Below, piece by piece: positions 9,544-23,964 of a stretch of DNA of 23,978 bases (within the stretch, counting starts at the first letter, position 1; every line of letters starts with the position of its first letter). Source of the stretch: a virus; the IMG/VR virus record IMGVR_UViG_3300035698_009070, positions 1 through 23,978 of that record. One strand, written 5' to 3'. The position numbers were made by a program, and so were the translations under genes. The notes beneath the pieces are model-generated. The model was not told where the DNA came from. It saw only the letters and a list, made by a program, of their open reading frames with translations, and did no database searches.

Positions 9544-9567
9544 AGAGCTCTATGTTTAAAGCCCTTC
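9544..9567 (-). terminator. Intrinsic terminator after the coiled-coil gene
   Basis: On the minus strand AAGGGCT (9567-9561) pairs with AGCTCTT (9550-9544) over 7 bp with one G-U wobble and a 10-base loop, followed by a T-run and AATTAA. The stop codon of the coiled-coil gene lies in the loop. It separates that unit from the structural genes downstream. Confidence 0.6.
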
Positions 9568-9951: not shown

Positions 9952-9967
9952 TTTATTATTATAATTT

Positions 9968-10984
9968 TTATATACCTTCGTTCAATTTTCTAACTTTTTC
10001 AGGGTCCACAACTGGGAGTGTTATTACTGGTTTAATAGTTTTGATTCTATTATTACCTGCTTCAATAACAGTCTTTGCTTTTTCACCTTTTAATGCCTCA
10101 TTAATTTCCTCAACTGATTGCATATTAGAAATTAAATCTATTCTTTCCTTAGCCGTCAATTTAACTGATTTTTTAGCAACTGGTTTATTTACTTTCTTTT
10201 CCGGTTTTCTATCACCATAAACTAATTTTTCAATCTTCTCTTTAAAAATATCTTTAATTTTAGAAGGGTCTTGTAATATCTTATTCGTAAATTCATTTGC
10301 TAAGAAATCAATTATAGAAGTATCATAAGAATCTTCCATCATTTCAATAAAATCTAATCTAGGGATTTTATCATTAAAATCAATTGTGATATCCAACTCT
10401 ATTATTCTTTTAACATGCTTAAACATGGTAAGAATAGGGTCTTCAACTGGTTGAGGTCTATTATGAACCTGTTGTTGAACAGGTTGGCTTTGTGGTTCAC
10501 CATTAACCACAACATTAGTTGGTCTAGATCGTATCTGTTCAATTTCTGGTACATTTGGGTTTAAAATCCTTTCAAATGCTTCATTTTGTTTCTCGACCAC
10601 ATTATCAACATTTGTTGATGATGCATCACCTTGAATTCCATATTTTTTAGCTAATTCTGCTTTTGCGTCCTCTTCGGAAGTTTGGTATACCGCACTTTCA
10701 CTAGTAGTAGGCATAACTTCGCCACCAAAATTACTGGCTAATGAATCATCAACCATATTTTCAGTTGGTATACTTTTAATCTTATCTGCTAATGAATCAT
10801 AAGCTGATTGTGTATTAAAAAATGTTGTTGGATCGATTTGTTCGGTGTATTGACTTGGATCTAATAGAGCAGTAACACTTACTTTTTCCTTGCTTTCCAA
10901 AATTGCAATATCCTCAAATGCATCTAAAACTTTAATAGTTTCACCTGTTTTATTATTTCTAAATGATTTATTTGAAATGTCCAT
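9968..10984 (-). CDS. 338-aa phage protein of unknown function, probable virion or assembly factor
   Basis: I do not recognise a named family. The N-terminus (about 1-60) is compact: KSFRNNKTGETIKVLDAFED then LDPSQYTEQIDPTTFFNT. Residues 60-190 are Ser, Asn, Pro and Gln rich and probably disordered (QSQPVQQQVHNRPQPVED near 165-182). Residues 185-255 form a helical domain, with IPRLDFIEMMEDSYDTSIID and FLANEFTNKILQDPSKIK. A basic linker with KKVNKPVAKKSVK follows. The unit starts just after the gp32 terminator and has its own promoter-like element (TATAATATATAG, 11006-11017). The mixture of folded ends and a flexible middle suits an adaptor or assembly protein; that is inference. Confidence 0.65.
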   Translation of the reverse strand: MDISNKSFRNNKTGETIKVLDAFEDIAILESKEKVSVTALLDPSQYTEQIDPTTFFNTQSAYDSLADKIKSIPTENMVDDSLASNFGGEVMPTTSESAVYQTSEEDAKAELAKKYGIQGDASSTNVDNVVEKQNEAFERILNPNVPEIEQIRSRPTNVVVNGEPQSQPVQQQVHNRPQPVEDPILTMFKHVKRIIELDITIDFNDKIPRLDFIEMMEDSYDTSIIDFLANEFTNKILQDPSKIKDIFKEKIEKLVYGDRKPEKKVNKPVAKKSVKLTAKERIDLISNMQSVEEINEALKGEKAKTVIEAGNNRIKTIKPVITLPVVDPEKVRKLNEGI

Positions 10985-11005
10985 ATATTATTTTGTTTTA
11001 TTTTT

Positions 11006-11017
11006 CTATATATTATA
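11006..11017 (-). promoter_or_regulatory. TATAATATATAG promoter-like element
   Basis: The minus strand has TATAATATATAG 22 bases before the ATG of the 338-aa gene, directly downstream of the gp32 terminator. The inner TAATATATAG recurs exactly at 21568-21577, 22421-22430 and 23139-23148, each just before a minus-strand start codon. It resembles a -10 box. Confidence 0.5.
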
Positions 11018-11037
11018 GGGGTATACTTTTGTTTGTT

Positions 11038-11075
11038 TAAAAAAAATCCTATACATTTCAAAAATATATAGGATT
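11038..11075 (-). terminator. Strong intrinsic terminator after gp32
   Basis: On the minus strand AATCCTATA (11075-11067) pairs perfectly over 9 bp with TATAGGATT (11053-11045) and is followed by a run of T. It begins 20 bases after the gp32 stop codon and is a textbook rho-independent terminator. It makes gp32 a monocistronic transcript. Confidence 0.85.
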
Positions 11076-11095
11076 CTTATTAAAAGTGGATATTT

Positions 11096-12052
11096 TTACA
11101 TATCATTGAAGAAGTCATCTTCGTCCTCTTCTGCATTATCATTAGTAGATTCGCTAAAATTTGAATCTAGATTAAAGTCATCTGTAGAAGGTGATTTCTC
11201 GGCATTAGCATAAGAATTTGCTGCTTTCCCAGTCATGAAATTTGTAATTTCTGAGATTTTTGCGTGTTGTTCATCTGTTAATACTTGAGGTGCGAAATCT
11301 TCGAGTTCGTTTTCACGGTCTAGTAAGAAATCTCTTACTTTACCTTGATACTTAGATTCAATCTTACCATCTTCATCAACTGGCACTGATTTAAATTCGC
11401 CTTTTTCTTTGAAGTAAATAGGTAGTGAAGAAACTTCAGGTTTGAACATACTCATTTTGTAATCTGGATATGTTTCATCACCAGTTTGAATTTCTTTAAC
11501 GATTAAAACTAAATCTTTACCTACACCAGGGTCAAATACTGTACATGGAACACCAGTGATATCACCATTTTTCTCTGCTTGGATTTTGTCTTTAATTGTC
11601 TTACCATATTGATAAATCATAATTTTACCAACTAATTCTGGTTGTTGTTCATCTTCTAAGACCAATACATATGAATAGTATTTCTTTGAGTAGTTCAACA
11701 TTTTTGATTTCTCCATTAAGATTGCATTTTTTGAATTTTGCATACTGTAATAAAGATCTGTTAGTGGACATTTTTCACCGAAATTCTTTGGTGAATCGAA
11801 CCAACCACTTAATTCTCTTGGGTTGCTAATTTTCACATAGTGTGCTATCTTCTCAATAGCTGATTGTCCTAGTTTGGAATCTTGTGTTAAGTTAGGTAAT
11901 AATCTAACTACTGATCTCCAACCTTTTTTCTTATCTTTCGCTTTTGAAAGATCGATACGGTAAATACCGTCATTGTTTGATTTTACTTGGTCTTTAAGGA
12001 AGTCCATTTTGTCGTCCAAATTACCATTAAATAATTCATCTAATTCTGCCAT
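11096..12052 (-). CDS. 32: gp32-like single-stranded DNA-binding protein
   Basis: A 318-aa homologue of T4 gp32, which coats single-stranded DNA in replication, recombination and repair. The core matches the gp32 OB-fold pattern: WRSVVRLLPN (45-54), the aromatic block KKYYSYVLVLEDEQQPELVG (123-142, compare YWANILVVKDPAAPENEG in T4), KIMIYQYGKTIKDKI (143-157) and FDPGVGKDLVLIVKE (173-187). The last 40 residues are Ser/Asn-rich and end in EEDEDDFFNDM, the acidic tail that in T4 recruits partner proteins. The T4 zinc site (His64, Cys77, Cys87, Cys90) is not conserved: only Cys95 and Cys170 are present. The T4 basic LAST-type N-terminal motif is also not evident. The gene has its own promoter-like element, leader hairpin and terminator. 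Confidence 0.9.
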   Translation of the reverse strand: MAELDELFNGNLDDKMDFLKDQVKSNNDGIYRIDLSKAKDKKKGWRSVVRLLPNLTQDSKLGQSAIEKIAHYVKISNPRELSGWFDSPKNFGEKCPLTDLYYSMQNSKNAILMEKSKMLNYSKKYYSYVLVLEDEQQPELVGKIMIYQYGKTIKDKIQAEKNGDITGVPCTVFDPGVGKDLVLIVKEIQTGDETYPDYKMSMFKPEVSSLPIYFKEKGEFKSVPVDEDGKIESKYQGKVRDFLLDRENELEDFAPQVLTDEQHAKISEITNFMTGKAANSYANAEKSPSTDDFNLDSNFSESTNDNAEEDEDDFFNDM

Positions 12053-12138: not shown

Positions 12139-12336
12139 TTATTTTCGTATATTTGTAGGTTTTTTTCTAGATTCTTTTAAACTATTTCTCGTACCTAAAT
12201 AGTTGAAACTAAACTGTAGCCAATAATATATGGTATAATTCTGTAGAATCTTGTTTCTATTTTTCCGTTGTAAATTTTCATATCTCGCTTTAATTGTATC
12301 TGGTGATATATTAAAGTTTAAAGATATTATTAAATA
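12139..12336 (-). pseudogene. Open frame without a start codon, possible gene remnant
   Basis: Directly downstream of the 232-aa gene, a minus-strand frame stays open for 65 codons and ends in TAA at 12139-12141, but it has no ATG, GTG or TTG. The translated part looks protein-like rather than random: it includes ISPDTIKARYENLQRK, reminiscent of a helix-turn-helix, then YTIYYWLQFSFNYLGTRN and a basic tail. It may be the 3' end of a deleted gene, for example a DNA-binding or homing-endonuclease-type protein. It could also be chance in AT-rich DNA. It fills most of the 277-base gap before gp32. Confidence 0.35.
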
Positions 12337-13028
12337 CTATAATTATATTTTGGATTCAAACCAAATCTAATATCACTCAACATCAATAAACCACCACCAT
12401 CAGTTTCTATTTCAATGTCAAATTCTATTTCATATTTACTTAAACCTCTATGATTAATTTTAGTTTCTATGTTTAGATAATCATCATCACCTATTTTACA
12501 TTCTCCCATATATTTAATAATCGCATCTTTACAATCCTCTAATGCCTCAGAATCTGAAAATTCAAATGCTATATGAGATGAGTACTTAGATGACCTAGCA
12601 TTATAAAATTTTATATCACAATACCTCAAACCTAAAATCCTTTTTAAAGAATGCAAATTAAGAAACACATTACTATCATTATAAATAAAGAAATCACCTT
12701 TTCTAAAACCATTTATTAAAGTAATAAAGTAACCACCATTTCTTACACCAATATTCACACCAACTTCAAAATCATCTTTAATCCTATCTATCGCAGTTTT
12801 AATATCCTGTGTTACCTCAAATTCATTCTTCTTAGAATCATTTAACTCATCAATCGTATTGAAAGTTGTGTTTTTATTAAATGTACAAAGTATAAAAATA
12901 CTAATTTCGTTAGGCCCAGAATTATCTAATCTTGAACCAGAATCGATAAAATCGATAAATGCCATTCTACAAGTTTCAGTAAAATCAGATTTACTTTCGA
13001 ATATTTTCCAAGTCTTAATTTTTTTCAT
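12330..13028 (-). CDS. Leader-family small protein (232 aa), unknown function
   Basis: The last intact gene of the first minus-strand array. It begins MKKIKTWKIFESKSD, a variant of the leader shared across the array, with a candidate junction I-F-E|S at residues 9-12. After it TCRMAFIDFIDSG (19-31) matches the 'helix then IFID' motif of the family. The rest alternates short strands and helices (ISIFILCTF, VGVNIGVRNGGYFITLING, HSLKRILGLRYCDIKFYNA), ending with a strand-rich, acidic region. No enzyme signature, membrane segment or secretion signal is seen. Its ATG touches the stop of the preceding gene, so it is translated from a polycistronic message. Confidence 0.7.
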   Translation of the reverse strand: MKKIKTWKIFESKSDFTETCRMAFIDFIDSGSRLDNSGPNEISIFILCTFNKNTTFNTIDELNDSKKNEFEVTQDIKTAIDRIKDDFEVGVNIGVRNGGYFITLINGFRKGDFFIYNDSNVFLNLHSLKRILGLRYCDIKFYNARSSKYSSHIAFEFSDSEALEDCKDAIIKYMGECKIGDDDYLNIETKINHRGLSKYEIEFDIEIETDGGGLLMLSDIRFGLNPKYNYSI

Positions 13029-13886
13029 TTAATTTAATAATATTTTTAATGTATAATCGTAAAAATCAGTAGTATCAAATTGCCTAGTCCCCCTTGATTT
13101 ATCCCATATAACATGATTGTCATCAATTTCTGGTAAAATACTCAATAGGGCATCATCCAACAATTCTTCAATTCTATTTAAATCAAATTTGCCTGTTCTA
13201 TAAGAATCCTCATATCCACCAATATCAATAAGTAAACAAGGTGTAAAACACAATCCAATTATTTTATCTAATGAATATTTCTGCACCTTTCTAGACGAAT
13301 GTAATAAATGTTCATCAGAAGTTGTTAAATGTTTACTCATTTGATTAAGATAATCTAATATCTTAAAATTTGAACAATTGAACTCTTCTCGTGTTACTAA
13401 CTTCTGTGACTCTGTAGTTCTTACTAAAATATCAGTAGATAAAACACTCATATAAAGAGTTGGTTGAACAATCGTAATTAACATAGAAATCATTAATGAT
13501 AATTTATTATCATTATATTTATCTCCCATTCCCAGCATACCATTATAACGCCCATTTATATCATAATCATAATTATCATAATCACAATATGCAACAACAC
13601 GTCTTACAAAAATCTTCTTACCAAAAGGTAATTCATCCAAAACATCATACAATCTACTATAAACATTATCAGTATCAAGCTTTTCTAATGAACCTAAAAT
13701 TTCATCGACTCTATTAGATATTTTATTATAATACCCGACACCAATAAAATGTTCAGCCCAATGTTTTAAATCATTTTCTTTAATGGAATTATCCCATCTG
13801 TGCCTTTTTAAATCCTCAAACCAGTAATAAATACTATAATCTGAATTTTTCTTTGATTCTGTAAATTGTGTATATCTTTTTAACAT
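13029..13886 (-). CDS. Leader-family protein (285 aa), unknown function
   Basis: It begins MLKRYTQFTESKKNSDY, with the E-S junction at residues 10-11 as in its neighbours. The body is a mixed alpha/beta protein with many Tyr and Asp residues (WFEDLKRHRWDNSIKENDLK near 22-41, DELPFGKKIFVRRVVAYCDY near 85-104). No motif of a known enzyme is visible. It lies 2 bases after the 126-aa gene and abuts the 232-aa gene. Although longer than most array members, it shares only the leader with them as far as I can see. Confidence 0.65.
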   Translation of the reverse strand: MLKRYTQFTESKKNSDYSIYYWFEDLKRHRWDNSIKENDLKHWAEHFIGVGYYNKISNRVDEILGSLEKLDTDNVYSRLYDVLDELPFGKKIFVRRVVAYCDYDNYDYDINGRYNGMLGMGDKYNDNKLSLMISMLITIVQPTLYMSVLSTDILVRTTESQKLVTREEFNCSNFKILDYLNQMSKHLTTSDEHLLHSSRKVQKYSLDKIIGLCFTPCLLIDIGGYEDSYRTGKFDLNRIEELLDDALLSILPEIDDNHVIWDKSRGTRQFDTTDFYDYTLKILLN

Positions 13887-13888
13887 AA

Positions 13889-14269
13889 TTATGGTTTTAT
13901 TACTATTACTTGAAATATATCCTGATCAAATTTAACGAAAGTTGGATTATACATTCCAATAAATCTATTCAAATCGGTATCTAATTCATTCACGATATCT
14001 ATATGTGCTTTTAAATCACCAATCTCAACCATCGGTAAAATGTCTATATTTATCATATACCCTATATCACATTTATCAGGATGCCATTCTAAATCTTTAT
14101 TACTGAAATCATTACTAGCCCAGTTATCATCATCATTTGGATCAATATAAATTTCATGAATACCATGATCTTCACATAAATCAAATGTGTGCGCAAAAAT
14201 TAATTCCAAATCACCTTTATCAAATGGTTTCGATTTTTTCGATTCATTGTATTTTTTTAAATGTTTCAC
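13889..14269 (-). CDS. Leader-family small acidic protein (126 aa)
   Basis: It begins MKHLKKYNESKKSK, the clearest form of the shared leader, with E-S at residues 9-10. The mature part is strongly acidic, with Asp-rich segments (IDPNDDDNWASNDF near 42-55) and alternating strands (YMINIDILPMVEIG, DIFQVIVIKP at the end). A basic leader on an acidic body would suit a peptide that targets the protein and is then removed. DNA mimicry is possible for so acidic a protein, but nothing specific supports it. The gene abuts its upstream neighbour. Confidence 0.65.
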   Translation of the reverse strand: MKHLKKYNESKKSKPFDKGDLELIFAHTFDLCEDHGIHEIYIDPNDDDNWASNDFSNKDLEWHPDKCDIGYMINIDILPMVEIGDLKAHIDIVNELDTDLNRFIGMYNPTFVKFDQDIFQVIVIKP

Positions 14270-14830
14270 CTATTTATCAATTTTTTTATATATTTCTTCT
14301 AATTCTTCTCTTGACACGGGCTTTGATTTGATTAAATTTGCCGATTCTGAGTAATAACCATTGCTTCTACCCCACCACTTTATTGTAACATAACCATCAA
14401 TTGTTGCAAATTTATAAAAAGTCCAAGTTTGTGTATCAAAACCACATACTCCTGCTAGTTCAATAGTCTCTTGATTACTTGATACTTCCGCTTGTAATAA
14501 TGGTTGGTCTATCAAATCTGATAAATCACCTTCAATATCATCAATCATAACATTAACATCACAACTAGGATCTTCATCATTATAATAAACATATAAATTA
14601 TATTCTGCATGACCCTCAACAATGAATAAAATTTCATCATTCTCTTTATTTATTCTGATATCAATTATCATCTCACCTTTTAGTTTAGCTGTAGTGAATA
14701 TTTCACCAGTATATCTTGAATAGAACTCTATTCCTAAATCGGAACTATAAAAACTATCATATCCGCATCGAAATTTATTATTCGCTTCCTCATCATCAAT
14801 TGATTCATTATATCTTTTTAAATATTTCAT
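14270..14830 (-). CDS. Leader-family protein, duplicate of the third domain of the next gene
   Basis: I choose the ATG at 14830 because it gives MKYLKRYNES, the shared leader; an in-frame ATG at 14836, directly after the upstream stop, would add only two residues. From residue about 17 onward it matches the last 160 residues of the 434-aa protein upstream: FRCGYDSF, KLKGEMIIDIRINKENDEI, IVEGHAEYNLY, IDDIEGDLSDLIDQPLLQAE, WTFYKFATIDGYVTIKWW and SREELEEIYKKI all have near-identical counterparts. This is a tandem duplication. The fold appears to be beta-rich with a C-terminal helix. Function unknown. Confidence 0.75.
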   Translation of the reverse strand: MKYLKRYNESIDDEEANNKFRCGYDSFYSSDLGIEFYSRYTGEIFTTAKLKGEMIIDIRINKENDEILFIVEGHAEYNLYVYYNDEDPSCDVNVMIDDIEGDLSDLIDQPLLQAEVSSNQETIELAGVCGFDTQTWTFYKFATIDGYVTIKWWGRSNGYYSESANLIKSKPVSREELEEIYKKIDK

Positions 14831-14836
14831 ATACAT

Positions 14837-16141
14837 CTAACTTATTTTTATATATATTTCTTCTAATTTTTCTCTTGATATTCCACCTACTTTACTTAGT
14901 GTAACTTTTTCTGAATAATAACTATTTTCACTTGAGTTAAATGGTGAAATTCTAAACCATTTTATTGTGATATAACCATTAATTGATGCAAACTTATAAA
15001 AAGTCCAAACCCCAATCTGTTTACCTCCATAATATTCTTTGTTGCTTGATTCTTCTGCTTGTAATAGTGGCTGATCAATCAAATCTGATAAATCGCCTTC
15101 AATATCATCAATAGTTACGTTATCTTCATCATAAGGGTCATCTGGATAAAAAAGGTATAAATCATATTCTGCATGACCCTCAACGATTAATAATAACTCA
15201 GTATTATTTTTATTAATTTTAATATCAATTATCAACTCACCTTTCAACACAGATGTTTTTAAATCACTTGTAAATCCCAATTTTAAGAAACTATCATATC
15301 CACATTTAAACTTATCATTATTACTATCATCACCAAGTGATTCTGTTATCTTATATTTATCTTCTAAATAAGGTGATTTTGTCATTGTTCCCCATTTATC
15401 ATATTTTATCCTATAATTATAGAAACCTGATGTTATACTCCTCGCCTTCAACCCAAAAGATTCAGACTCATCTATAAATTCCTTAACTAGTTCTCTAAAA
15501 TTATTATTTGATATTTTATCAACAATTTGACCATCTTCATCAAGATCTAAATAATTATCAGGACTCCATCCCTTATGATAATCTTTATAGGATATTTCAA
15601 CACAAATAGAATTTTTGTCACTATATATCTGTTCTTGACCACCAACGCTACCACTATAAATTTTAACATCAAGACCATCATCTTTCAAAACTAATGCCAA
15701 GTCTTGTAATAATTCTATCTTATCTTGTACTTTACTCTCATTAATATCTTCAACAACTTCTATTTGCTCTTCCCATTTAATATCAAAACCAGTAAATTTA
15801 CCTAATTCACCCGCCTTACTAATATCATTCATATCCCCAAACAAATATTTCCTAACATTAACAAATTTATAATTTCTATATTTATCACCTAAGAAATCTA
15901 CCAATCTCAATGCAACATCTTCTATTTCATCAAATTCGAATTCAACTGGGTCTATTGTTCGACCATCAATATTTGCATATGGTCTCCTAATTTTAATTAA
16001 ATGTATATTAGTATCTGCGAAGATTTTATATTTTTCGAAATTCACCACAAATCCAATATCTGTCAATTCTAAACAAATATCTTTAATATCATCTAAGATA
16101 TTTTGGCCCTTAAAATTTTCAAATAATTTTATAAATTTCAT
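14837..16141 (-). CDS. Three-domain leader-family protein, possible polyprotein (434 aa)
   Basis: It begins MKFIKLFENFKGQ (leader variant). Domain 1 (about 10-115) has the family motif ILDDIKDICLELTDIGFVV. Domain 2 (about 137-250) repeats that plan with KIELLQDLALVLKDDGLDVK. Domain 3 (about 275-434) is the same unit that makes up the neighbouring gene at 14270-14830. The two junctions contain DINESK (132-137) and KITESLG (264-270), which copy the leader's end (x-E-S). In the single-domain paralogue the same position is YNES, followed by an equivalent acidic stretch and F-[RK]-C-G-Y-D-S-F. The gene therefore looks like a fusion of three array genes, with the possible cleavage sites kept. It ends with TAG directly before the next ATG. 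Confidence 0.75.
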   Translation of the reverse strand: MKFIKLFENFKGQNILDDIKDICLELTDIGFVVNFEKYKIFADTNIHLIKIRRPYANIDGRTIDPVEFEFDEIEDVALRLVDFLGDKYRNYKFVNVRKYLFGDMNDISKAGELGKFTGFDIKWEEQIEVVEDINESKVQDKIELLQDLALVLKDDGLDVKIYSGSVGGQEQIYSDKNSICVEISYKDYHKGWSPDNYLDLDEDGQIVDKISNNNFRELVKEFIDESESFGLKARSITSGFYNYRIKYDKWGTMTKSPYLEDKYKITESLGDDSNNDKFKCGYDSFLKLGFTSDLKTSVLKGELIIDIKINKNNTELLLIVEGHAEYDLYLFYPDDPYDEDNVTIDDIEGDLSDLIDQPLLQAEESSNKEYYGGKQIGVWTFYKFASINGYITIKWFRISPFNSSENSYYSEKVTLSKVGGISREKLEEIYIKIS

Positions 16142-16142
16142 T

Positions 16143-16673
16143 CTATTTCTTCTTTTTCTTTTGGAATGGTGATTTTAAATGTTTAAGATTCCAAGATGGT
16201 ACAAATGATTTATTATGATTTTCAAAATCCTCATATGATTCAATACCACTATCTATTGCATTTCTACAATATTGTATATTAGCACCCTGTTTTGTTAAAT
16301 CAGATATCCTATCACCGATATCAATACCCTTAGTCATTTTTCTTAACATCTTCCACTGATCAACAGTGTGTTGTCTAGGCAATGATTCAAATAACATCAC
16401 ATTATCTTCATCTATTTCGATAACACCATTCTCATTAAATAAAATAACATAATTGCTATTCTTTACTGGAATTACACTATCTACTAAGTCAGAATCTATA
16501 CTACCAACACCATATTCTTTTACAGTACTAACATTATCATGCTCAACAAGAAAATGAAATAATTTATTATCATTCTCTTGTATCAATGATTTCATATCAT
16601 TTGGTAATGATATAAATTCGGTTGATTCGCCATAAGGCTTCAATCTAGTTCTTATTATTTTCATATTAACCAT
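16143..16673 (-). CDS. Leader-family protein with lysine tail (about 176 aa)
   Basis: The first ATG (16673) overlaps the upstream gene by 8 bases; an in-frame ATG at 16664 gives MKIIRTRLKPYGESTEF, which restores the leader form with Y-G-E|S, so I prefer the later start. The body contains short strands (SNYVILFNENGVIEIDEDNV) and helices (QWKMLRKMTKGIDIGDRISD) and ends in PFQKKKKK, a highly basic tail unlike its acidic neighbours. Such a tail could bind nucleic acid. I do not recognise a family. Confidence 0.65.
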   Translation of the reverse strand: MVNMKIIRTRLKPYGESTEFISLPNDMKSLIQENDNKLFHFLVEHDNVSTVKEYGVGSIDSDLVDSVIPVKNSNYVILFNENGVIEIDEDNVMLFESLPRQHTVDQWKMLRKMTKGIDIGDRISDLTKQGANIQYCRNAIDSGIESYEDFENHNKSFVPSWNLKHLKSPFQKKKKK

Positions 16674-16935
16674 CGAATATATTTTTCAAGTATAAATAAG
16701 CATCACTATAACCAGCTTCTAATCCCCAATTATCTTCAACGTAATCACAAATAGCATCAGCCTTTTCTTGTGAGATCATATCAGAATCATTTGAAACTTC
16801 CTTAAACTTTTTTTCTAACTCATCTTCACCATCATGTGATTTAAAATCATGGCTATATAACCATGACCTAAATTGTCTCCAATTTAAATCCTCATCTGGG
16901 ACACTAAACTCTTCGAATATTTTTAAAAATTTCAT
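16666..16935 (-). CDS. Leader-family small acidic protein (89 aa)
   Basis: The first gene of the first minus-strand array, beginning MKFLKIFEEFSVPDED. The body is acidic and helical (WRQFRSWLYSHDFKSHDG, QEKADAICDYVEDNWGLEAG, AYLYLKNIFDG). No known motif. Its promoter must lie in the 63-base gap shared with the divergent gene at 16999, where the minus strand has TAATATATAAAG about 22 bases before the ATG, close to the TAATATATAG element seen elsewhere. Confidence 0.65.
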   Translation of the reverse strand: MKFLKIFEEFSVPDEDLNWRQFRSWLYSHDFKSHDGEDELEKKFKEVSNDSDMISQEKADAICDYVEDNWGLEAGYSDAYLYLKNIFDG

Positions 16936-16985
16936 AAAATATTATTTTTCTTTATATATTATTTTTCAATACTAATTTTTTTTAC

Positions 16986-16993
16986 TATATTTG
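16986..16993 (+). promoter_or_regulatory. TATATTTG, Bacteroidota-type -7 element
   Basis: TATATTTG fits the TAnnTTTG consensus known for Bacteroidota vegetative promoters and ends only 5 bases before the ATG at 16999. If used, it would start transcription at or next to the start codon and yield a leaderless mRNA. The TTTG element expected further upstream is not clear, so this is tentative. Confidence 0.35.
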
Positions 16994-16998
16994 TAATA

Positions 16999-17403
16999 AT
17001 GTTATTTTATTATAGAGATAAAGAATATCCATGTAATTGGAAGACACAAATGCGTAAAGATATGTTTTATAGCATGGAACCTGTTAAATTAAGAATAAGG
17101 GTGCCAATTACTACATATGATACCATTATGTTAGATATTAAAAATGATGAAGATAATAATACTTTATTAGATATAATGAGATTCAAAATTATAAAATCAA
17201 AAAACGAGATTCTGTACTTTAAACAATCAAATATAAATGACTTAGAAATTTGGGACTTAGTTGCATTTTTAGACACTAATACAATTTCCTCGAAATTTAA
17301 TGATGGGACTATTGGTGTTAATTTTAAATTATCAATATCTAATGAGGTGAAATTAAGTAAACAAGATACTCGTGACATACTATTAAACAATATACTATCA
17401 TGA
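16999..17403 (+). CDS. Unknown protein (134 aa), first gene of the plus-strand island
   Basis: It opens the plus-strand island and is divergent from the minus-strand array. The protein lacks the shared leader (it begins MLFYYRDKEYPCNWKT). It seems beta-rich: VKLRIRVPITTYDTIMLDIK (49-68), IMRFKIIKSKNEILYFK and TIGVNFKLSISNEVKLSK suggest a small sandwich or barrel, with a short helix at the end. No enzyme motif or membrane segment. Its stop overlaps the next start as ATGA, so the two are translationally coupled. Confidence 0.65.
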   Translation: MLFYYRDKEYPCNWKTQMRKDMFYSMEPVKLRIRVPITTYDTIMLDIKNDEDNNTLLDIMRFKIIKSKNEILYFKQSNINDLEIWDLVAFLDTNTISSKFNDGTIGVNFKLSISNEVKLSKQDTRDILLNNILS

Positions 17404-17762
17404 AATACCTATCATTCGAAGACTTTTGTAAACCTGTACATACCTTTATTTATAAGGGTAAGTTAGACATCAATGAGGTAATTTATGATTGTGAAGATAT
17501 TTTCTTAGAACTAAAAGATTCAAATTTAATTGTAGATATAATAGATAATGAAACCCAATTATTTTTCAGAAAAAAATATACTATAACTCTTAGATATCCT
17601 GAAATTTATTACATTGGTTCTGATTCTGATACATGTGAACTAATTGATGAATCTAGACAAAGAGTTGATGATTACTTTAAATTTAAAGGGTTTGAAAAAC
17701 AAGAAGTTTTAGGTATTAAAAATGATTTCTCTTATGGTAACATTGATAGTCTGTATGAGTAA
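17400..17762 (+). CDS. Leader-family domain protein on the plus strand (120 aa)
   Basis: It begins MKYLSFEDFCKP, a shortened leader variant, followed by VIYDCEDIFLELKDSNLIV (28-46), the array's 'DIFIDL.D' motif, and by ITLRYPEIYYIG. The closest layout in the window is domain 1 of the 434-aa protein (DICLELTDIGFVV then IKIRRPYANI). It shows that the family occurs on both strands. The ATGA overlap with the preceding gene indicates coupling. Function unknown. Confidence 0.65.
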   Translation: MKYLSFEDFCKPVHTFIYKGKLDINEVIYDCEDIFLELKDSNLIVDIIDNETQLFFRKKYTITLRYPEIYYIGSDSDTCELIDESRQRVDDYFKFKGFEKQEVLGIKNDFSYGNIDSLYE

Positions 17763-17856
17763 ATTTACACAAGGTTAAGAAAGTGAAAACACCGAGGAGC
17801 GAATTCGATGTTTCCTTATAGCCTATAACTATAACCGGTCCCAAAATGAGGTACAT
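17716..17856 (-). CDS. Possible 46-aa antisense ORF with a perfect Shine-Dalgarno site
   Basis: On the minus strand GGAGGT (17866-17861) precedes an ATG at 17856 with a 5-base spacer, the only strong Shine-Dalgarno site I see in the window. The 46-codon frame (MYLILGPVIVIGYKETSNSL, then LLGVFTFLTLC and a polar, His-rich end) is hydrophobic in its first 30 residues, as a small membrane peptide would be. It overlaps the 3' end of the 120-aa gene in antisense. The same bases form RNA hairpins on the plus strand, so the GGAGG may simply be one arm of a stem. Low confidence as a real gene. Confidence 0.25.
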   Translation of the reverse strand: MYLILGPVIVIGYKETSNSLLGVFTFLTLCKFTHTDYQCYHKRNHF

Positions 17857-17876
17857 TTAAACCTCCGGATATTATA
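17787..17876 (+). ncRNA. Structured leader upstream of the GMP reductase unit
   Basis: This spacer is visibly richer in G and C than its surroundings and can fold. Hairpin 1 is AAACA-C-CGA (17787-17795) with TCG-A-TGTTT (17805-17813), 8 pairs and one mismatch. Hairpin 2 is TATAA-TAT-CCGG (17824-17838) with CCGG-ATA-TTATA (17865-17876), enclosing AGGT/ACCT (17849-17852 with 17861-17864). CCGAGG (17792-17797) could instead pair with CCTCCGG (17862-17868), giving a mutually exclusive fold. It matches no riboswitch that I can recognise, including the purine class. It may be a regulatory leader for the two genes downstream, or a self-contained small RNA. Confidence 0.3.
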
Positions 17877-17970
17877 ACATATATATTAATTTTTTATAAT
17901 CTCTTTTTAAACTTTTCCTTTTTAAACACTAAAATAAGAACACTAATTTAAATTAAATAATAATAATAAT

Positions 17971-18279
17971 ATGAGTAAACATGAAATTAAAGTTGAATTC
18001 TCAGATAACACCGCACTTGAGAACCTTATAGAAAAAGCATATTTTGAAGAAGGTCAATTAGGTAAAATTTTAGGGAAGAATAATTTCTTACAAATTGAAG
18101 AATCTGATGTAGTAAACTATGTAATCTTCAAAGATTTGGATGGTGCAACCATTAAAATAACAAATGAAATGATAGATGGTTGTATAAGATTTATGATTGA
18201 GGAAATAGATGGTAATATTAAACTATACCCAATTTCAATTTACTGCATCAAAGAAGAAGGTAAATATATTTTTTACTAA
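17971..18279 (+). CDS. Unknown small protein (102 aa) upstream of GMP reductase
   Basis: It begins MSKHEIKVEFSDNTALENL, without the shared leader. The segment IKITNEMIDGCIRFM (61-75) resembles FKLSQEMIDCIIRS and FKLTQEIIDCIIRS in the 21-22 kb paralogues, so it may be a distant relative that lost or never had the leader. The rest is mixed helix and strand, with alternating Ile and Lys. No catalytic motif. It ends 16 bases before the reductase and is probably co-transcribed with it. Confidence 0.6.
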   Translation: MSKHEIKVEFSDNTALENLIEKAYFEEGQLGKILGKNNFLQIEESDVVNYVIFKDLDGATIKITNEMIDGCIRFMIEEIDGNIKLYPISIYCIKEEGKYIFY

Positions 18280-18295
18280 AAATAACAAATAAAAT

Positions 18296-19240
18296 ATGAA
18301 TCAAAATTTCGATTATGATAATATAAATCTAATCGCTAGATATAGTGACGTAGATAGTAGATCCGAATGTGAGACTACAATAAAATTAGGTGACTTTACA
18401 TTTAAGAACCCAGTAATTCCAGCCAATATGGAATCAGTAATAAATGAAAGTTTGTGTGAGAAATTAGCAACAGAAGGCTATTTCTATGTTATGCACAGAT
18501 TTAATATTGATATGGTGGCTTTTGTGAAAGACATGAAATCAAAAAAGCTATATTCATCAATATCTATTGGTGTTAATAAAGATTCCTATGACTTGATAGA
18601 GAATTTAGTTTCTGAAAAGTTAAAACCTGAATTTATTACAATTGATATAGCACATGGGCATTGTAAGAAAATGAAGAAAATGATTAAGTTTGTAAATGAG
18701 AAATTACCAGCTTCATTTATAATTGCAGGTAATGCTGCAACAATTGATGCTACCCGTGATATAGACAAATGGGGAGCAGATGCTATAAAAATTGGTATTG
18801 GACCAGGATCGGCATGTACAACCTACCCAACAACAGGATTTGGTTCTAGAAATATACAAGCTTCAGTAGTCAATGAATGTGCTAGTGTTACTAGAAAACA
18901 TATTATAGCAGATGGTGGTATTAAAAACCCAGCAGATATAGCGAAGTCCATTGTACTTGGCGCCTCTATGGTCATGGCAGGTGGTATGATGTCAGCATTC
19001 CTAGACTCACCTGGAAGAATAGTAGAAATAGATGATATAAAATATAAGGAATTTTATGGAAGCGCATCTGCTAGACAAGGTGATAAGAAAAATAGAGTTG
19101 AAGGCACAGTAAAATTAAATAAATTGAAAACAATGAATCTTACTGACCAATTAGAATATTTAACTGAATGTTTACAATCTGCAATTAGCTATGGTGGTGG
19201 TAGAAAATTAATTGACCTTCAATCGGTTAGGTGGAGATAA
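18296..19240 (+). CDS. guaC: GMP reductase (GuaC, IMPDH/GMPR family)
   Basis: This 314-aa enzyme reduces GMP with NADPH to IMP and ammonia, linking guanine to adenine nucleotide pools. It closely follows bacterial GuaC of the B. subtilis type: FDYDNINLI then SRSECETT (5-28), PVIPANMESVI (39-49), MHRFN (66-70), ITIDIAHGH (114-122), IKIGIGPGSACTT with catalytic Cys174, then TTGFGSRN, IIADGGI (203-209), VMAGG, the phosphate-binding YGSAS (254-258), VEG with Glu269, and SAISYGGG near 295-302. No CBS domains are present, which together with the GFG loop favours reductase over IMP dehydrogenase. The family signatures I can check are intact. It is flanked by small unknown genes on the same strand. 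A phage copy is unusual and may help feed dATP synthesis for this AT-rich genome, which is inference. Confidence 0.93.
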   Translation: MNQNFDYDNINLIARYSDVDSRSECETTIKLGDFTFKNPVIPANMESVINESLCEKLATEGYFYVMHRFNIDMVAFVKDMKSKKLYSSISIGVNKDSYDLIENLVSEKLKPEFITIDIAHGHCKKMKKMIKFVNEKLPASFIIAGNAATIDATRDIDKWGADAIKIGIGPGSACTTYPTTGFGSRNIQASVVNECASVTRKHIIADGGIKNPADIAKSIVLGASMVMAGGMMSAFLDSPGRIVEIDDIKYKEFYGSASARQGDKKNRVEGTVKLNKLKTMNLTDQLEYLTECLQSAISYGGGRKLIDLQSVRWR

Positions 19241-19252
19241 TATATACAATAT

Positions 19253-19585
19253 ATGAAACATATAAAAAATAAACAAGTATATGAGAGTATCAAGTCATAT
19301 TCGGATGAAGAATTAGATTTGATTAAAAGTATGGTAAATTCATATATTATATTCCATGACCAATTTGATTTAGAATCAACTAATACTCATGGGTTGATAG
19401 ATAAAGTAACTAATGGTGATTTGAACACAAATGACCTTAGAAGAATTATTAAAGTTTTAAATGGTGTGGATTCACTACCTTGTGTTGATCCTTTATGGGA
19501 TAGATATTTTAAACAAGATGTAATTGATTGGTTAGGGGAAAATGAAGAATTTTCATTAGAAGCCTATATAAAACAATTATTATAA
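19253..19585 (+). CDS. Leader-family protein (110 aa), last gene of the plus-strand island
   Basis: It begins MKHIKNKQVYESIKSYSDEE, an extended variant of the leader with Y-E|S at residues 10-12. The body is helical and acidic (EELDLIKSMVNSYIIFHDQF, TNDLRRIIKVLNGVDSLP, DVIDWLGENEEFSLEAYIKQ). No enzyme motif. It lies 12 bases after the reductase; TAATATATAC sits in that gap, near its ATG. It converges on the broken gene at 19589-19841. Its last bases are part of a 16-base perfect AT palindrome (19575-19590). Confidence 0.65.
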   Translation: MKHIKNKQVYESIKSYSDEELDLIKSMVNSYIIFHDQFDLESTNTHGLIDKVTNGDLNTNDLRRIIKVLNGVDSLPCVDPLWDRYFKQDVIDWLGENEEFSLEAYIKQLL

Positions 19586-19590
19586 TAATT
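19575..19590. repeat. 16-base perfect AT palindrome at a convergent gene junction
   Basis: AATTATTATAATAATT is its own reverse complement and spans the stop codons where plus-strand and minus-strand genes meet. It could act as a weak bidirectional transcription stop, but an A/T-only palindrome may also arise by chance here. Confidence 0.4.
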
Positions 19591-19841
19591 ATACTATATT
19601 TTTTAATTTACTTAACGCAATTTCAAAGTTTTTAATCCTATCATTTATAGTATCTTCTGATACCATTCTACTAATCACATCATGATCAGCAACTAACCTA
19701 AAGTTATTCAAATATCACATCAATATAAGACGTGTCTAATGGTTTAATCTCTGGCTTATCTGGATCACTCCAAGATTTCATATCCTTAAAATTTACAATC
19801 TTTAATAACTTATTTTCGTTTATATGTTTCATCATCATCAT
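19589..19841 (-). pseudogene. Leader-family gene with an apparent frameshift
   Basis: The gene starts with four consecutive ATG codons (19841-19830) and MKHINENKLLKIVNFKDMKS, then WSDPDKPEIKPLDTSYIDVIFE and a stop. One base over, a second frame continues without a gap: NNFRLVADHDVISRMVSEDT, then INDRIKNFEIALSKLKNIV and a stop at 19589. Joining DVIF to NNFRLV by skipping one base at about 19711-19714 gives one continuous protein of about 80 residues. The gene is thus disrupted by a +1 change, is read by a frameshift, or contains a sequencing error. It is the last gene of the second minus-strand array. Confidence 0.6.
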
Positions 19842-19844
19842 ATA

Positions 19845-20261
19845 TTAAATTTCATCATCAATAATAAACTCGATGTAAATGTCATTCTCTTTCTCTTTAC
19901 TCAATTTCACCTTTGGGTACATATCAAAGACTCTTTTTATAGAAGTATCTAAATCTAGGTAAAATTCTTTATAATAATCACCACCATCAATTAATTGTTT
20001 AATACTCATTTCCTTTTTTTTATATCTATATTTTTTGATTTTAATATTAAGGCAAGCAACAAATTCATAGTCATCATCCCACTCAAAATCAAGGTATTCG
20101 CCATCACCACCAATAATTTCAAATTCATAGTCATATTTTGAATTACTATCATCAACAAAATGGATAAATTCCATTATTATATTTTCATATATTTCTTCTG
20201 CCTTAGCATTTCTTTGTGGTGAAATTTCTTTTCCTTCGTTATATTTTCTTATATGTTTCAT
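19845..20261 (-). CDS. Leader-family acidic protein (138 aa), paralogue of 21097-21564
   Basis: It begins MKHIRKYNEGKEISPQ (leader with E-G in place of E-S). The body shares order and motifs with the 155-aa protein at 21097-21564: EFIHFVDDSN against EFIDFSDDN, an Asp-rich turn (FEWDDDYEF), then LIDGGDYYKEFYLDLDTSIK against LIKHSDYYKEFYLDLEVCVN, and a terminal strand. It is acidic overall, with a basic patch in the middle (KIKKYRYKKK). Function unknown. It follows the preceding gene by 5 bases. Confidence 0.7.
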   Translation of the reverse strand: MKHIRKYNEGKEISPQRNAKAEEIYENIIMEFIHFVDDSNSKYDYEFEIIGGDGEYLDFEWDDDYEFVACLNIKIKKYRYKKKEMSIKQLIDGGDYYKEFYLDLDTSIKRVFDMYPKVKLSKEKENDIYIEFIIDDEI

Positions 20262-20266
20262 TTTGC

Positions 20267-20680
20267 TTATTTATATTTTAAACGAAGTGTCAGTAATTCT
20301 GGCCAATTTTTATTTAATTCAATATCAAGTAATTTATTTCGCATGAAAAAACTAACAACTTTCACAAGTTTATCTCCATCAACTCTAAACTCACACCAAA
20401 CACCATCACTATTATATTCGAATTTCACCACATAATCTTTTTCTTTTGCGAAATCATTTGACCTAATTATACAATCTATAATTTCTTGAGTGAGTTTAAA
20501 ATACGTATTTTTTCTTTTAATAATTGTGAATGTAATAGTATCATCAAAAAAATTAACTCTACTATCAATTATGAAATTATCATCTTGTATCACATCTATA
20601 AAAACATCTTTCAAATCTTCATGCATTATATGAATATTTTCTTCATCAATCTTACCTTCGAATCTTTTAATATACTTCAT
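20267..20680 (-). CDS. Leader-family DIFID-domain protein (137 aa)
   Basis: The ATG at 20680 is chosen because it yields MKYIKRFEGKIDEEN, the shared leader; an upstream in-frame ATG at 20707 would add nine residues and overlap the preceding gene. The protein carries EDLKDVFIDVIQDDNFII and FKLTQEIIDCIIRSNDFAKE, matching the proteins at 20700-21110, 21580-21996 and the broken 22001-22416. The common plan is a helix, the IFID strand, a beta hairpin, a 'sQEmIDcIIRS' helix and two or three C-terminal strands. Function unknown. Confidence 0.7.
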   Translation of the reverse strand: MKYIKRFEGKIDEENIHIMHEDLKDVFIDVIQDDNFIIDSRVNFFDDTITFTIIKRKNTYFKLTQEIIDCIIRSNDFAKEKDYVVKFEYNSDGVWCEFRVDGDKLVKVVSFFMRNKLLDIELNKNWPELLTLRLKYK

Positions 20681-20699
20681 TATTTTTAATATCTCATTT

Positions 20700-21113
20700 T
20701 TAACCATTATAAAGCAACATCAAACCTTTTACTCCCATACCAACTTCCATTATCTCATAATTATAGTTTTTTAGCACATCATCAACGTACCAAAAGTTTT
20801 TCCATCTTATAGCAGTATACTCATCTGTCGTTTTATATTTGAAATCTACAGAATAACCTTTTACTTTTATATACTCACCAGATCTAATTATACAATCTAT
20901 CATCTCTTGGCTAAGTTTAAATGTATTACCACCTTTTATAAGTTCTATTATTATAAGAATAGAACTCGGTGTTCTTCCGATACCGCTACGATTTTCAACA
21001 CTAATATTAAAATCATCATCCTGAACCACATCTATAAAGATATCTTCCAAATCTGTTATTATGTCGTCATCCTGATTAGACACCGCTTCAAATGTTTTAA
21101 TGTGCTTCATCAT
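20700..21113 (-). CDS. Leader-family DIFID-domain protein (137 aa)
   Basis: Two consecutive ATG codons (21113 and 21110) are possible; the second gives MKHIKTFEAVSNQDDD, the shared leader. It contains TDLEDIFIDVVQDDDFNIS and FKLSQEMIDCIIRSGEYIKV, making it the closest paralogue of the next gene downstream. Its start overlaps the end of the upstream gene by 17 bases, a sign of coupling within the array. No enzyme motif or membrane segment. Function unknown. Confidence 0.7.
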   Translation of the reverse strand: MMKHIKTFEAVSNQDDDIITDLEDIFIDVVQDDDFNISVENRSGIGRTPSSILIIIELIKGGNTFKLSQEMIDCIIRSGEYIKVKGYSVDFKYKTTDEYTAIRWKNFWYVDDVLKNYNYEIMEVGMGVKGLMLLYNG

Positions 21114-21564
21114 TTATTTCTAAAATTTTATATGTGATTATGTCAGTAATAAATAAAGTAATTACAACATTTGAATTACTAAGCCGTTCTAATCCAAATG
21201 CTAAATTATTCGGATACTTGTCAACAATTCGATTAACACAAACCTCTAAATCAAGATAGAATTCTTTATAATAATCAGAATGTTTAATTAGGTCTTTAAA
21301 AGAAGTTAGATAGCTATTATCAGTGCTTTTTTCAATTCTAACATCAATAATAACACCATAATCATCATCTTCATCATATACGAAACCCCTATCATCACAA
21401 TAACTACAAGCAAACTCTGTATCAATGTCAAGAGAATATCTATTATCATCAGAAAAATCAATAAATTCTAACTCAATATCTTTAATTATATCAGTTATTA
21501 AAGAATCAATAATCTTATTAACCTCATAACTATTACTCTCATTATATTTCTGTAAATATCTCAT
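21097..21564 (-). CDS. Leader-family acidic protein (155 aa), paralogue of 19845-20261
   Basis: It begins MRYLQKYNESNSYEVN, a clear leader with E-S at 9-10. It carries ELEFIDFSDDNRYSLDIDTE, an acidic turn (YDEDDDYGV), and LIKHSDYYKEFYLDLEVCVN, all matched in the 138-aa paralogue. One Cys pair (SYCDDRG and an earlier Cys near AC) is not in a recognisable zinc motif. The promoter-like element TAATATATAGG ends 3 bases before its ATG. Function unknown. Confidence 0.7.
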   Translation of the reverse strand: MRYLQKYNESNSYEVNKIIDSLITDIIKDIELEFIDFSDDNRYSLDIDTEFACSYCDDRGFVYDEDDDYGVIIDVRIEKSTDNSYLTSFKDLIKHSDYYKEFYLDLEVCVNRIVDKYPNNLAFGLERLSNSNVVITLFITDIITYKILEINDEAH

Positions 21565-21567
21565 AGC

Positions 21568-21577
21568 CTATATATTA
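21568..21577 (-). promoter_or_regulatory. TAATATATAG element before the 155-aa gene
   Basis: An exact TAATATATAG (part of TATAATATATAGG) lies 3 bases before the ATG at 21564, in the 15-base gap after the upstream gene. If it is a -10 box, the resulting mRNA would be nearly leaderless. Confidence 0.4.
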
Positions 21578-21579
21578 TA

Positions 21580-21996
21580 TTATTTACTAGGTGATTTATC
21601 ATAGAAATTTAAGGATATTTTATAAACATTTGGATTATAACCATTTCCTAACCAAGCTAAATCTGAATTTCTAAATCTATCATTAACATTATAAATAAAC
21701 CTCTCATTATTACCGCTATTATAACTAAATGTAGTATAGTAATTATTCATTCTTGCATAATCATGTGCCCTAATAACATCTGATATTATATCATCGTTAA
21801 AACGGAAAAAACCACCATCTTTTGTCATTATTCTAATTCTAAGCTCATTACCATATATTGATAATGCAAAAGAAATATTATCAGCTTGTTCCAAATCTAT
21901 AAAAATATCTTTCATATCATGATACAATTGTTTAAGATCAATTTTAACTGGTAAATTTCTGAAATTACTCTCATTATATTTCTTTAAATGTTCCAT
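21580..21996 (-). CDS. Leader-family DIFID-domain protein (138 aa)
   Basis: The ATG at 21996 gives MEHLKKYNESNFRN, the shared leader with Lys2 replaced by Glu; an in-frame TTG at 22008 is less likely. LYHDMKDIFIDLEQADNISF and FFRFNDDIISDVIRAHDYAR place it with the DIFID paralogues, and its C-terminal half (FIYNVNDRFRNSDLAWLGNG) matches the end of the broken gene immediately upstream (FYVVRDRIRNFDTQWM). The two are adjacent tandem duplicates. Function unknown. Confidence 0.7.
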   Translation of the reverse strand: MEHLKKYNESNFRNLPVKIDLKQLYHDMKDIFIDLEQADNISFALSIYGNELRIRIMTKDGGFFRFNDDIISDVIRAHDYARMNNYYTTFSYNSGNNERFIYNVNDRFRNSDLAWLGNGYNPNVYKISLNFYDKSPSK

Positions 21997-22000
21997 AATA

Positions 22001-22416
22001 TTATACAAATGTTAATTTAATTACTCTTGTGCTTGGCCAATCTTCTGTCATCCACTGTGTATCAAAATTTCTAATTCTATCTCTAACTACATAAAATTTC
22101 TTCATTGTATTTTCCACTGAATATTGAAATGTTGTCTGCCACCCATTATCTTTTGCATAGTTATAAGACCTGATGATATCATCTATACCCTCTTGGGTAA
22201 ATCTGAATTCTCCAGAAGAATTATCATCACCATCGTATGATTTCTTAGAGATAGTAATTATTATTCCTTCAATTCCATAATATTTTTATGGTCTAAAAAA
22301 TATGAAACCCTCTTATCTTGTATAAAATCTACAAATATATCATTTAAATCAGATTTCATCTGAAAAATACTAATCTTATCTTTCCCCTTATTTTCAAAAG
22401 TTTCTAAATATTTCAT
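22001..22416 (-). pseudogene. Leader-family DIFID-domain gene broken by a one-base shift in an A-run
   Basis: The ATG at 22416 starts MKYLETFENKGKDK, then MKSDLNDIFVDFIQDKRVSY, and the frame soon stops at 22261-22263. The -1 frame continues the same protein: YYGIEGIIITISKKSYDGDD, FRFTQEGIDDIIRSYNYAKD, FYVVRDRIRNFDTQWM, ending TAA at 22001-22003. The switch point is the run of five A on the minus strand near 22283-22287; a sixth A would restore one frame of about 138 codons, the length of the paralogues. It is a recent frameshift, a homopolymer sequencing error or slippery translation. TAATATATAG precedes the start. Confidence 0.7.
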
Positions 22417-22433: not shown

Positions 22434-23135
22434 TTAAATATTTAAATTCTTATACCTCCAGATGAAACCACCTGCGGATTTATAAACTCCCTTACAACAT
22501 TTAATAATATTACTAACATCGATTTTCATCTTTTTACTCGCATTATTAAGAGATGGGTATTCGTTTATAAAATTCATTTCTTTATCATATTGAATAACAA
22601 ATTTATTATTTTGTTTTAAAATATCTTGCAACTTCTGTTCATTACTTTTAGAATCTTCATATCTCTTATTTGAAATTCGCAATTTTTCTCTCTCACTATC
22701 ATCTTTAAACCTCTCTATAGACTTCATACTTATTAACTCCTTAGTTTCCTTAGATAAGACTAGTTTAAATTTCCTATTCTTGGCAGATTCGGACATCTTT
22801 TTACGTGTTTCATCGGACATCTTTTTATTTTTATTTCCACCACTAGCCATATTTGTCAATTTATGACCCTCTAATTGATATTTATCAATATAATAAATTT
22901 CACGATCACAAACTTCATCATATGATGATATATCACTCTCAATGACTTCTATAATTGGCTTTAAACCCTTACTTCTAAGAGATTGAACCCAATTCGATTT
23001 GTGTGATTTTGATTTCTCTGAACAATGAGATTTTAATCGCTGCTTTAAGGTATTAAATGTTAATCCAATATATCTAATTTCACCCGAAATTGGATCAATT
23101 AGTTTATAAATAGTGTATTTTATTTCTTCTTCCAT
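22434..23135 (-). CDS. GIY-YIG homing endonuclease with NUMOD domains
   Basis: A 233-aa free-standing homing endonuclease of the seg/I-TevI type. The nuclease domain has YTIY (7-10) and RYIG (21-24), the family's GIY and YIG elements, Arg33 on the following helix, and Glu79 in DREIYYIDKY, which correspond to the catalytic Arg and Glu of I-TevI. It ends with TNMASGG (94-100). A NUMOD3-like DNA-binding segment follows (MSDETRKKMSESAKNRK, 106-122), then a basic helical linker, and a NUMOD1-like helix-turn-helix at about 190-230 (EYPSLNNASKKM and CCKGVYKSAGGFIWRY). Such enzymes cut a related phage genome lacking the gene and so spread. It lies next to a virion gene, as these elements often do. 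The signature residues are present, so it appears functional. Confidence 0.92.
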   Translation of the reverse strand: MEEEIKYTIYKLIDPISGEIRYIGLTFNTLKQRLKSHCSEKSKSHKSNWVQSLRSKGLKPIIEVIESDISSYDEVCDREIYYIDKYQLEGHKLTNMASGGNKNKKMSDETRKKMSESAKNRKFKLVLSKETKELISMKSIERFKDDSEREKLRISNKRYEDSKSNEQKLQDILKQNNKFVIQYDKEMNFINEYPSLNNASKKMKIDVSNIIKCCKGVYKSAGGFIWRYKNLNI

Positions 23136-23175: not shown

Positions 23176-23964
23176 CTATTTTTTCACCATTATGAAGAAC
23201 GAGCTGTTGCTCTGCCCATTAATAAACTCCTCCACCTCTTTAATTTCTGCTTGACCCTGTGATATTAAATCAGCACCCTGTATCTTTATCGCGCCCGGGA
23301 GCGTGAAATCGTACCTACCGACCATATTACCCAACTGTACTTTAGAATATCCAACAACATATTTGTAAAATAAATCATCTCTATATAAATTCTCATTTGG
23401 TATGTTCGCATATGCTTCCATAATCACATTATGTTCAACGTTAGTTAAAATGTGAAGTCTATGATTCAATTGATTGAAATGATGTTTAAGTGTATACTTA
23501 TTCAACTGATTTAGCATATCAGACATCGAATCTAGTATAGTTTTATAAACACCTAGTTCACCAATTGTGGTTACATAGGATGATAAATATGGTTGATTGG
23601 TGACCCCTAAATTAACTGAAAGATTTGGAGTGTTTATACCCAACTGATATAAAGAATCACCTCTTACTTCATATAAGTAAACAACTGATTGAATCTCACA
23701 TGGAACAGTCACATATCTATAATTTGTAAACTCCTCACATTTAAACGCGGCTTTGTGTATAAAAAAATATAATTTCTGCACAGCATATTGATATGATCTA
23801 TAAAACCAAGGAAGTGCACGTTTTTCAACAATTAATCTAATTGCTTCATCAGGTAATGTCTTAGGTAAAGCACAAGAAATATTTAGTTCTGTTTGTATAG
23901 AATCTATAAATTCTTCAATTGTAATACCACCTTGGTATGGAATATAGGGTGTTGTTGACGCCAT
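23176..23964 (-). CDS. Probable virion structural (neck/head-completion-type) protein
   Basis: A 262-aa protein. The N-terminus is typical of a phage structural protein (MASTTPYIPYQGGITIEEFI), followed by a helix with LPDEAIRLIVEKRALPWFYR, strands (YVTVPCEIQSVVYLYEV), a loop-rich middle and a long helical segment. The end has DDLFYKYVVGYSKVQLGNMV, then YDFTLPGAIKIQGADLISQG and an acidic helix (AEIKEVEEFI). I associate this 'K.QLG...G.FDFTLPG' ending with structural proteins near the head-tail region of large phages, but I cannot name a T4 counterpart with confidence. No enzyme motif is visible. The first Met at 23964 is close to the window edge and its promoter is outside. Confidence 0.5.
   Translation of the reverse strand: MASTTPYIPYQGGITIEEFIDSIQTELNISCALPKTLPDEAIRLIVEKRALPWFYRSYQYAVQKLYFFIHKAAFKCEEFTNYRYVTVPCEIQSVVYLYEVRGDSLYQLGINTPNLSVNLGVTNQPYLSSYVTTIGELGVYKTILDSMSDMLNQLNKYTLKHHFNQLNHRLHILTNVEHNVIMEAYANIPNENLYRDDLFYKYVVGYSKVQLGNMVGRYDFTLPGAIKIQGADLISQGQAEIKEVEEFINGQSNSSFFIMVKK

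Follow-up and report, generated by a model that had tools for sequence, protein, structure and literature searches.

Many otherwise different proteins of the largest phages begin with one short leader that very probably serves as a capsid-targeting propeptide like those of T4, greatly expanded in huge phages. A first-pass annotation of the window, a 23,978-nucleotide stretch of viral DNA (IMG/VR record IMGVR_UViG_3300035698_009070), had proposed capsid targeting with gp21-type cleavage for its leader genes. This proposal gained support from a protease in related genomes, from scaffold and capsid-protein sites that match the end of the leader, from fusion of the leader to a capsid-protein segment, from the recovery of IPII and IPIII in T4 by a leader profile, and from an upstream motif common to leader and capsid genes. 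On these sequence features, packaging and cleavage of the leader proteins are well supported.

Judged from its sequence relationships, the window is a piece of a Mahaphage-clade huge phage genome. Its gp32-like protein (11096-12052) has 76% identity to a protein of LR745206, 71% to one of LR756502, 46.5% to one of LR756504 and 37% to one of LR756501. According to the huge-phage clade paper, this clade holds all genomes larger than 634 kb, and its hosts are predicted to be Bacteroidetes (PMC7162821). The complete or near-complete relatives used here are genomes from that paper, LR745206 (634,780 bases), LR756502, LR756504 and LR756501 (735,411 bases), designated W01 to W04. Gene calls in these relatives come from a simple script that scores coding potential, so gene counts, including those of leader genes, are approximate.

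Leader genes across huge phage genomes

Window positions 6914-12052 and 23176-23964 correspond to consecutive genes in LR745206, with the leader arrays of the window lying in between, and the gene content of these arrays varies among relatives at the syntenic site. Across 54 contigs anchored on gp32, we counted 224 leader genes upstream of gp32 (0.46 per kb) and 13 downstream (0.03 per kb), and leader gene content was unlike from contig to contig. At the other end of the window, a minus-strand sugar gene cassette (901-6707) encodes a UDP-GlcNAc 2-epimerase, a methyltransferase and a protein of 1099 residues that contains a glycosyltransferase 2 domain; homologues of this cassette are mostly absent from W01 and W02.

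The class A leader has the consensus M-K-[HY]-[LI]-K-x-[YF]-[NEK]-[E/I/L]. Profile A, which covers its first nine residues, was built from two complete relatives and used with a threshold of 6 bits. Whole-proteome profile searches extended the leader from the window to the relatives, with matches on 117 of 846 genes in W01, 143 of 828 in W02 and 49 of 804 in W03, where about 0.5 per genome would be expected from internal methionines. Comparable leader scans of reversed genomes gave 0 to 3 matches. W01 to W04 also contain a second, T4-like leader form, MIKKYxQFINE↓S (the arrow marks the predicted cleavage site), exemplified by MIKKYLQFIKEA, MKTFNQFINEG and MKNYKQFVNEY. Profile B, which represents this form, is anchored on the Glu and was trained on huge phages only; it identified 85 (W01), 95 (W02), 39 (W03) and 89 (W04) genes, and the two forms combined account for 154, 184, 75 and 89 genes, respectively. 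Both forms occur on homologous proteins (W02_0487/W01_0458 and W02_0621/W01_0600). The density of profile B matches was 11.6-29.1 per 100 kb in the four huge phages, compared with 0.6-2.9 in KVP40, S-PM2, GAP32, phiM12, T4 and Lak-B5. The Lak phage has an S77 protease, yet hardly any such leaders in 200 kb.

Attachment of the leader is modular. It is added to some homologues and absent from others, as in the paralogues of W03_0409, and an RNA ligase carries it in W01 and W02 and is without it in W03, where another motif type precedes the gene. A search of 11.3 million bacterial and archaeal contigs gave 0 matches to the class A DNA pattern, compared with 40 matching stretches among viral contigs, and an origin of the leader in host genomes was rejected on these counts.

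Leader genes of the window

At more than 6 bits, profile A matched 11 of the 29 window genes, where the internal-methionine null expects 0.017. The first-pass annotation had listed fifteen genes with a common leader, named here by their start coordinates. Eleven of these (13028, 14269, 14830, 16141, 16935, 20261, 20680, 21110, 21564, 21996 and 22416) exceeded the threshold, and 13886 and 19253 are plausible variants. The remaining two probably have no leader: the start of 16664, MKIIRTRLKPYGES, resembles that of its leaderless homologue W02_0597, and 17400 begins with MKYLSFEDFC, which falls below both profiles, and comes after 16999 with an early-type motif. The bodies that follow the leader had been described as very different, which holds for the 320 leader proteins as a whole (246 clusters) and fails for 20680, 21110 and 21996, which form one paralogous family.

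The left array lies on the minus strand and starts with 16935 (16666-16935; MKFLKIFEEF; profile A, 13.2 bits). Upstream of it is a late-promoter-like AATATATA element (16954-16961, minus strand) of the motif class that precedes the capsid genes of the relatives. Two adjoining genes of this array have a phrog_2650 domain in common, 16141 (14837-16141; MKFIKLFENF; 11.1 bits) at its C terminus (residues 299-428) and 14830 (14270-14830; MKYLKRYNE↓S; 21.5 bits; late-type motif at -28) in its body. Gene 14269 (13889-14269; MKHLKKYNE↓S; 23.1 bits) has a GTG start and a late-type motif at -25 (approximately 14287-14294). The neighbouring 13886 (13029-13886) is a probable leader gene with the T4-like start MLKRYTQFTE↓S; it reaches 5.5 bits with profile B, below threshold, and its homologues carry leaders (W01_0559 starts with MKYLTKYKLFES and W02_0591 with MKIKTYSLFLES). 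A long form of the leader, MKKIKTWKIFE↓S, is found in 13028 (12330-13028; 7.5 bits).

On the plus strand, 19253 (19253-19585) is a probable diverged leader gene that begins MKHIKNKQVYE↓S (MKHIKNKQVYES), below both thresholds, with a late-type motif at -15. An IMPDH/GMP reductase-like gene (18296-19240, plus strand) sits inside the leader array and is retained in three genomes.

The right array, again on the minus strand, includes 20261 (19845-20261; MKHIRKYNE↓G; 20.9 bits) and 21564 (21097-21564; MRYLQKYNE↓S; 16.5 bits; late-type motif at -13). The paralogous genes 20680 (20267-20680; MKYIKRFEGK; 16.5 bits; family E 5e-12), 21110 (20700-21110; MKHIKTFEAV; 18.6 bits) and 21996 (21580-21996; MEHLKKYNE↓S; 18.0 bits) constitute the DIxDIFxEL family in this array. 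The broken gene 22416 (22009-22416; MKYLETFENK...; 15.0 bits; late-type motif at -14) was placed in the same family by eye: its open reading frame ends at 22261, and three-frame reading showed that a second frame carries on the family sequence. Three-frame reading also revealed a broken leader-like gene, MKHINENK... (19589-19841, minus strand), with a frame change near 19710, which was absent from the earlier list. The frame changes in these two genes reflect decay or sequencing error. A GIY-YIG and NUMOD1 homing-endonuclease-like gene (22434-23135, minus strand) adjoins 22416.

A prohead protease homologue and matching predicted cleavage sites

Being a 24-kb fragment, the window had no match in a Pfam S77 search. 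The gp21-like protease anticipated elsewhere in such genomes was located in all four relatives as a weak but significant S77 match adjoining gp23 (E of 1e-4 to 4e-6 in Pfam, short of the curated cut-off). This predicted protease lies upstream of gp23 and, in comparison with T4 gp21, keeps the contexts of the active-site His (GEFDHP/GELNHP) and Ser (VSSRA/VSSRG; hhalign E 1.4e-6), which, with its position beside gp23, assigns it to peptidase S77. It forms the N-terminal part of a fusion of approximately 700-800 residues, the middle of which is composed of YSEYIAENLDKN repeats, each containing an IAE that resembles the site of T4 IPII and IPIII. The relatives thus hold a gp21/S77 prohead protease and a scaffold that is predicted to be cleaved in the same genome. 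In L027/L028 and their relatives, prohead protease and scaffold are joined in one protein with about ten tandem repeats. LR756501, the 735-kb genome, additionally encodes a second S77-like protein (L094; 11314-11850, minus strand) without the catalytic His/Ser context (GELGYP, FRPRA), which is possibly an inactive protease paralogue.

The end of the leader, xNE↓S, agrees with two kinds of predicted site, L/INES in the scaffold fusion and INE↓N in the capsid protein. Of 47 unique sequences, 44 have LNES or INES at the junction behind the protease. Of 35 unique capsid-protein sequences, 33 have INE↓N after WM[AS]EYA, and the other two have IHEN and MNEN. Ranked by hNE[SNAG] sites, the protease-scaffold fusion comes first or nearly so within each proteome. 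In two proteins, W02_0144 (MKHLKNYKSFNE↓DATANASTAGMGGV...) and W01_0152, the leader is joined directly to a capsid-protein segment, with the leader FNE on the capsid SINE, and this fusion point coincides exactly with the predicted maturation site. A PDB sequence search with the capsid protein and the protease found no match.

Comparison with the T4 capsid targeting sequence

Over 149 kb of T4 (1222 starts), the three highest-scoring matches to profile B were gp61.1 (MKTFKEFIKE), IPIII and IPII (MKTYQEFIAE), the latter two being established capsid targeting sequence (CTS) proteins of T4 (PMC9026906). The profile recognizes T4 CTS proteins and little else, and in the same 149 kb it did not pick up IPI, which has a longer leader, or Alt. 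Residues 4 and 7 of T4 IPIII govern targeting, and residues 8 and 10 govern processing (PMC9026906). In agreement with IPIII, the huge-phage leader conserves residues 2, 4 (L/I) and 7 (Y/F), followed by a Glu (P1) mostly at position 9 or 11 and then mostly Ser. It is a short N-terminal peptide on otherwise unrelated proteins, with conserved residues at the IPIII determinants 4 and 7 and a gp21-type h-x-E cleavage motif at its end. This motif was present at residues 7-26 of 87% (W01) and 83% (W02) of leader proteins, compared with 46% and 42% of other proteins; approximately 11% of class A leaders (29 of 260) have no h-x-E near the end.

Like the huge-phage proteins, T4 IPI, IPII and IPIII have an N-terminal propeptide of about 9-12 residues with K2, a hydrophobic residue 4, an aromatic residue 7 and Glu at P1, together with a gp21-type protease, varied cargo and late-type genes (Mullaney and Black 1996; PMC9026906). 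The huge phages differ in having 75-184 carriers per genome against about four in T4, in their new dominant form (MK[HY]LKK[YF]NE↓S), in the fusion of protease to scaffold and in cargo families that are mostly unannotated. DarB of phage P1, an anti-restriction protein, is likewise directed into the head by an N-terminal peptide, although this peptide has another sequence, about 30 residues have been shown to be sufficient, and it is no single label across many proteins (PMC9024508). The head ejection proteins of phiKZ and SPN3US are similarly numerous, packaged, cut after Glu by a gp21-like enzyme and ejected, whereas their propeptides are long (111-130 residues in SPN3US) rather than a short common label (PMC5694885, PMC7411985, PMC13282480). 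We found no mention of the leader or of a packaged-protein system in the passages of the huge-phage clade paper that we searched (PMC7162821).

An upstream motif common to leader and capsid genes

An TAATATATA-like element occurs within 80 bases upstream of 59 of 117 leader genes in W01, 79 of 143 in W02 and 38 of 49 in W03. The same element precedes 14 of 16 structural T4 orthologues and 9 of the 46 orthologues with roles in replication and metabolism; the share is 17-24% for other genes and 12-14% for shuffled upstream regions. In each of W01 to W04, T4-like leader genes are associated with it as well (P 2e-4 to 1e-7). Upstream of class A leaders, a TATTTG-type motif is depleted. The presence of this element before both leader and capsid genes is an association, and it could be a translation element. 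More generally, W01 to W04 have two promoter-like classes, TAATATATA (late-like) and the TATTTG type, which we take to resemble the Bacteroidetes -7 element.

Cargo proteins and alternative explanations

PHROGs and Pfam searches on the cargo gave almost no matches; Pfam detected 17 families in 116 leader proteins, compared with 83 in 114 length-matched leaderless proteins. The few recognized domains include RNA ligase 1 (tRNA repair), found with a leader in two genomes, SET and NUDIX. Lysozyme-like and PQ-loop proteins that carry the leader look odd as head cargo. An assignment of W02_0272 as a nicotinamidase was dropped, as it had neither Pfam nor PDB support. In W01, W02 and the window together, the DIxDIFxEL family comprises 81 proteins, of which 68 carry a leader. 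An AlphaFold2 model of its member 21110 (pLDDT 68, pTM 0.62) has leader residues 1-12 disordered, and the model yielded no credible fold match.

Prohead targeting and cleavage could be true while the cargo consists mainly of assembly or core proteins, such as scaffold helpers or DNA-condensing proteins, instead of injected effectors. In T4, head assembly is influenced by IPIII as well (PMC9026906), and the DIxDIFxEL family could be structural filler. We regard this as the less likely description of the cargo, though one to be taken seriously: the leader proteins are spread over a great many clusters, some bear RNA ligase, SET or NUDIX domains, and the arrays vary among relatives at the syntenic site, unlike core assembly genes.

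Sorting signals can be short conserved N-terminal peptides, and the leader might send proteins to a membrane, a phage nucleus or a host complex rather than to the capsid. Such a destination seems improbable for a peptide that has no hydrophobic core, ends in agreement with prohead-protease sites, is joined to part of the capsid protein at the maturation site and, in its T4-like form, identifies T4 CTS proteins. Even less probable is that the common 5′ end acts at the level of DNA or RNA (as an enhancer of translation, a regulatory site or a hot spot of recombination) and encodes a non-functional peptide, as could be imagined from adjoining leader genes that abut and have the TAATATATA element in common. 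Identical leader residues use different codons in 34% of cases, compared with 43% in the bodies, and the two peptide forms on homologous proteins have different DNA. Because leader codons vary synonymously at near genome-wide usage, selection acts on the leader peptide, and we reject the nucleic-acid explanation on the codon analysis.

Proposed mechanism and implications

Under capsid targeting, the reading that we favour, leader genes would be expressed late, together with the capsid genes. Each precursor may dock through residues 1-7 (MK[HY][LI]Kx[YF]) on the scaffold repeats of the fusion protein, after which the gp21-type protease would cut behind the Glu at 9 or 11 (xNE↓S, xFE↓S) and release the cargo in the maturing head. 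Points against this reading are the class A leaders that have no h-x-E near the end, the scarcity of such leaders in the Lak phage despite its S77 protease, the lack of a protease in the fragmentary window, the T4 proteins IPI and Alt missed by profile B, the odd carriers and the chance that the upstream element acts in translation. We infer that the freed proteins would be present in the virion, could enter the next host together with the DNA and could serve early anti-defence or take-over roles. Injection and anti-defence are suggested by analogy with T4 IPI and IPIII and by the few cargoes with an annotation, RNA ligase among them. In T4, a restriction enzyme is inhibited by IPI, and infection of one E. 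coli strain requires IPIII (PMC9391042); an anti-defence role is therefore a reasonable guess for some of the cargo.

We think it somewhat probable that roughly a tenth to a fifth of the genes of Mahaphage-clade phages encode fast-changing packaged and injected proteins with one universal cleavable label, so that the head would deliver about a hundred effectors to each new host cell. If so, the largest known phages would load approximately 75-184 label-bearing proteins into their heads, and a large share of their unannotated genes would have one explanation. Candidate anti-defence and host take-over proteins could then be recognized in metagenomes by a sequence rule, and the leader and protease would form a ready-made pair of targeting tag and enzyme with which very large capsids could be loaded with foreign proteins.
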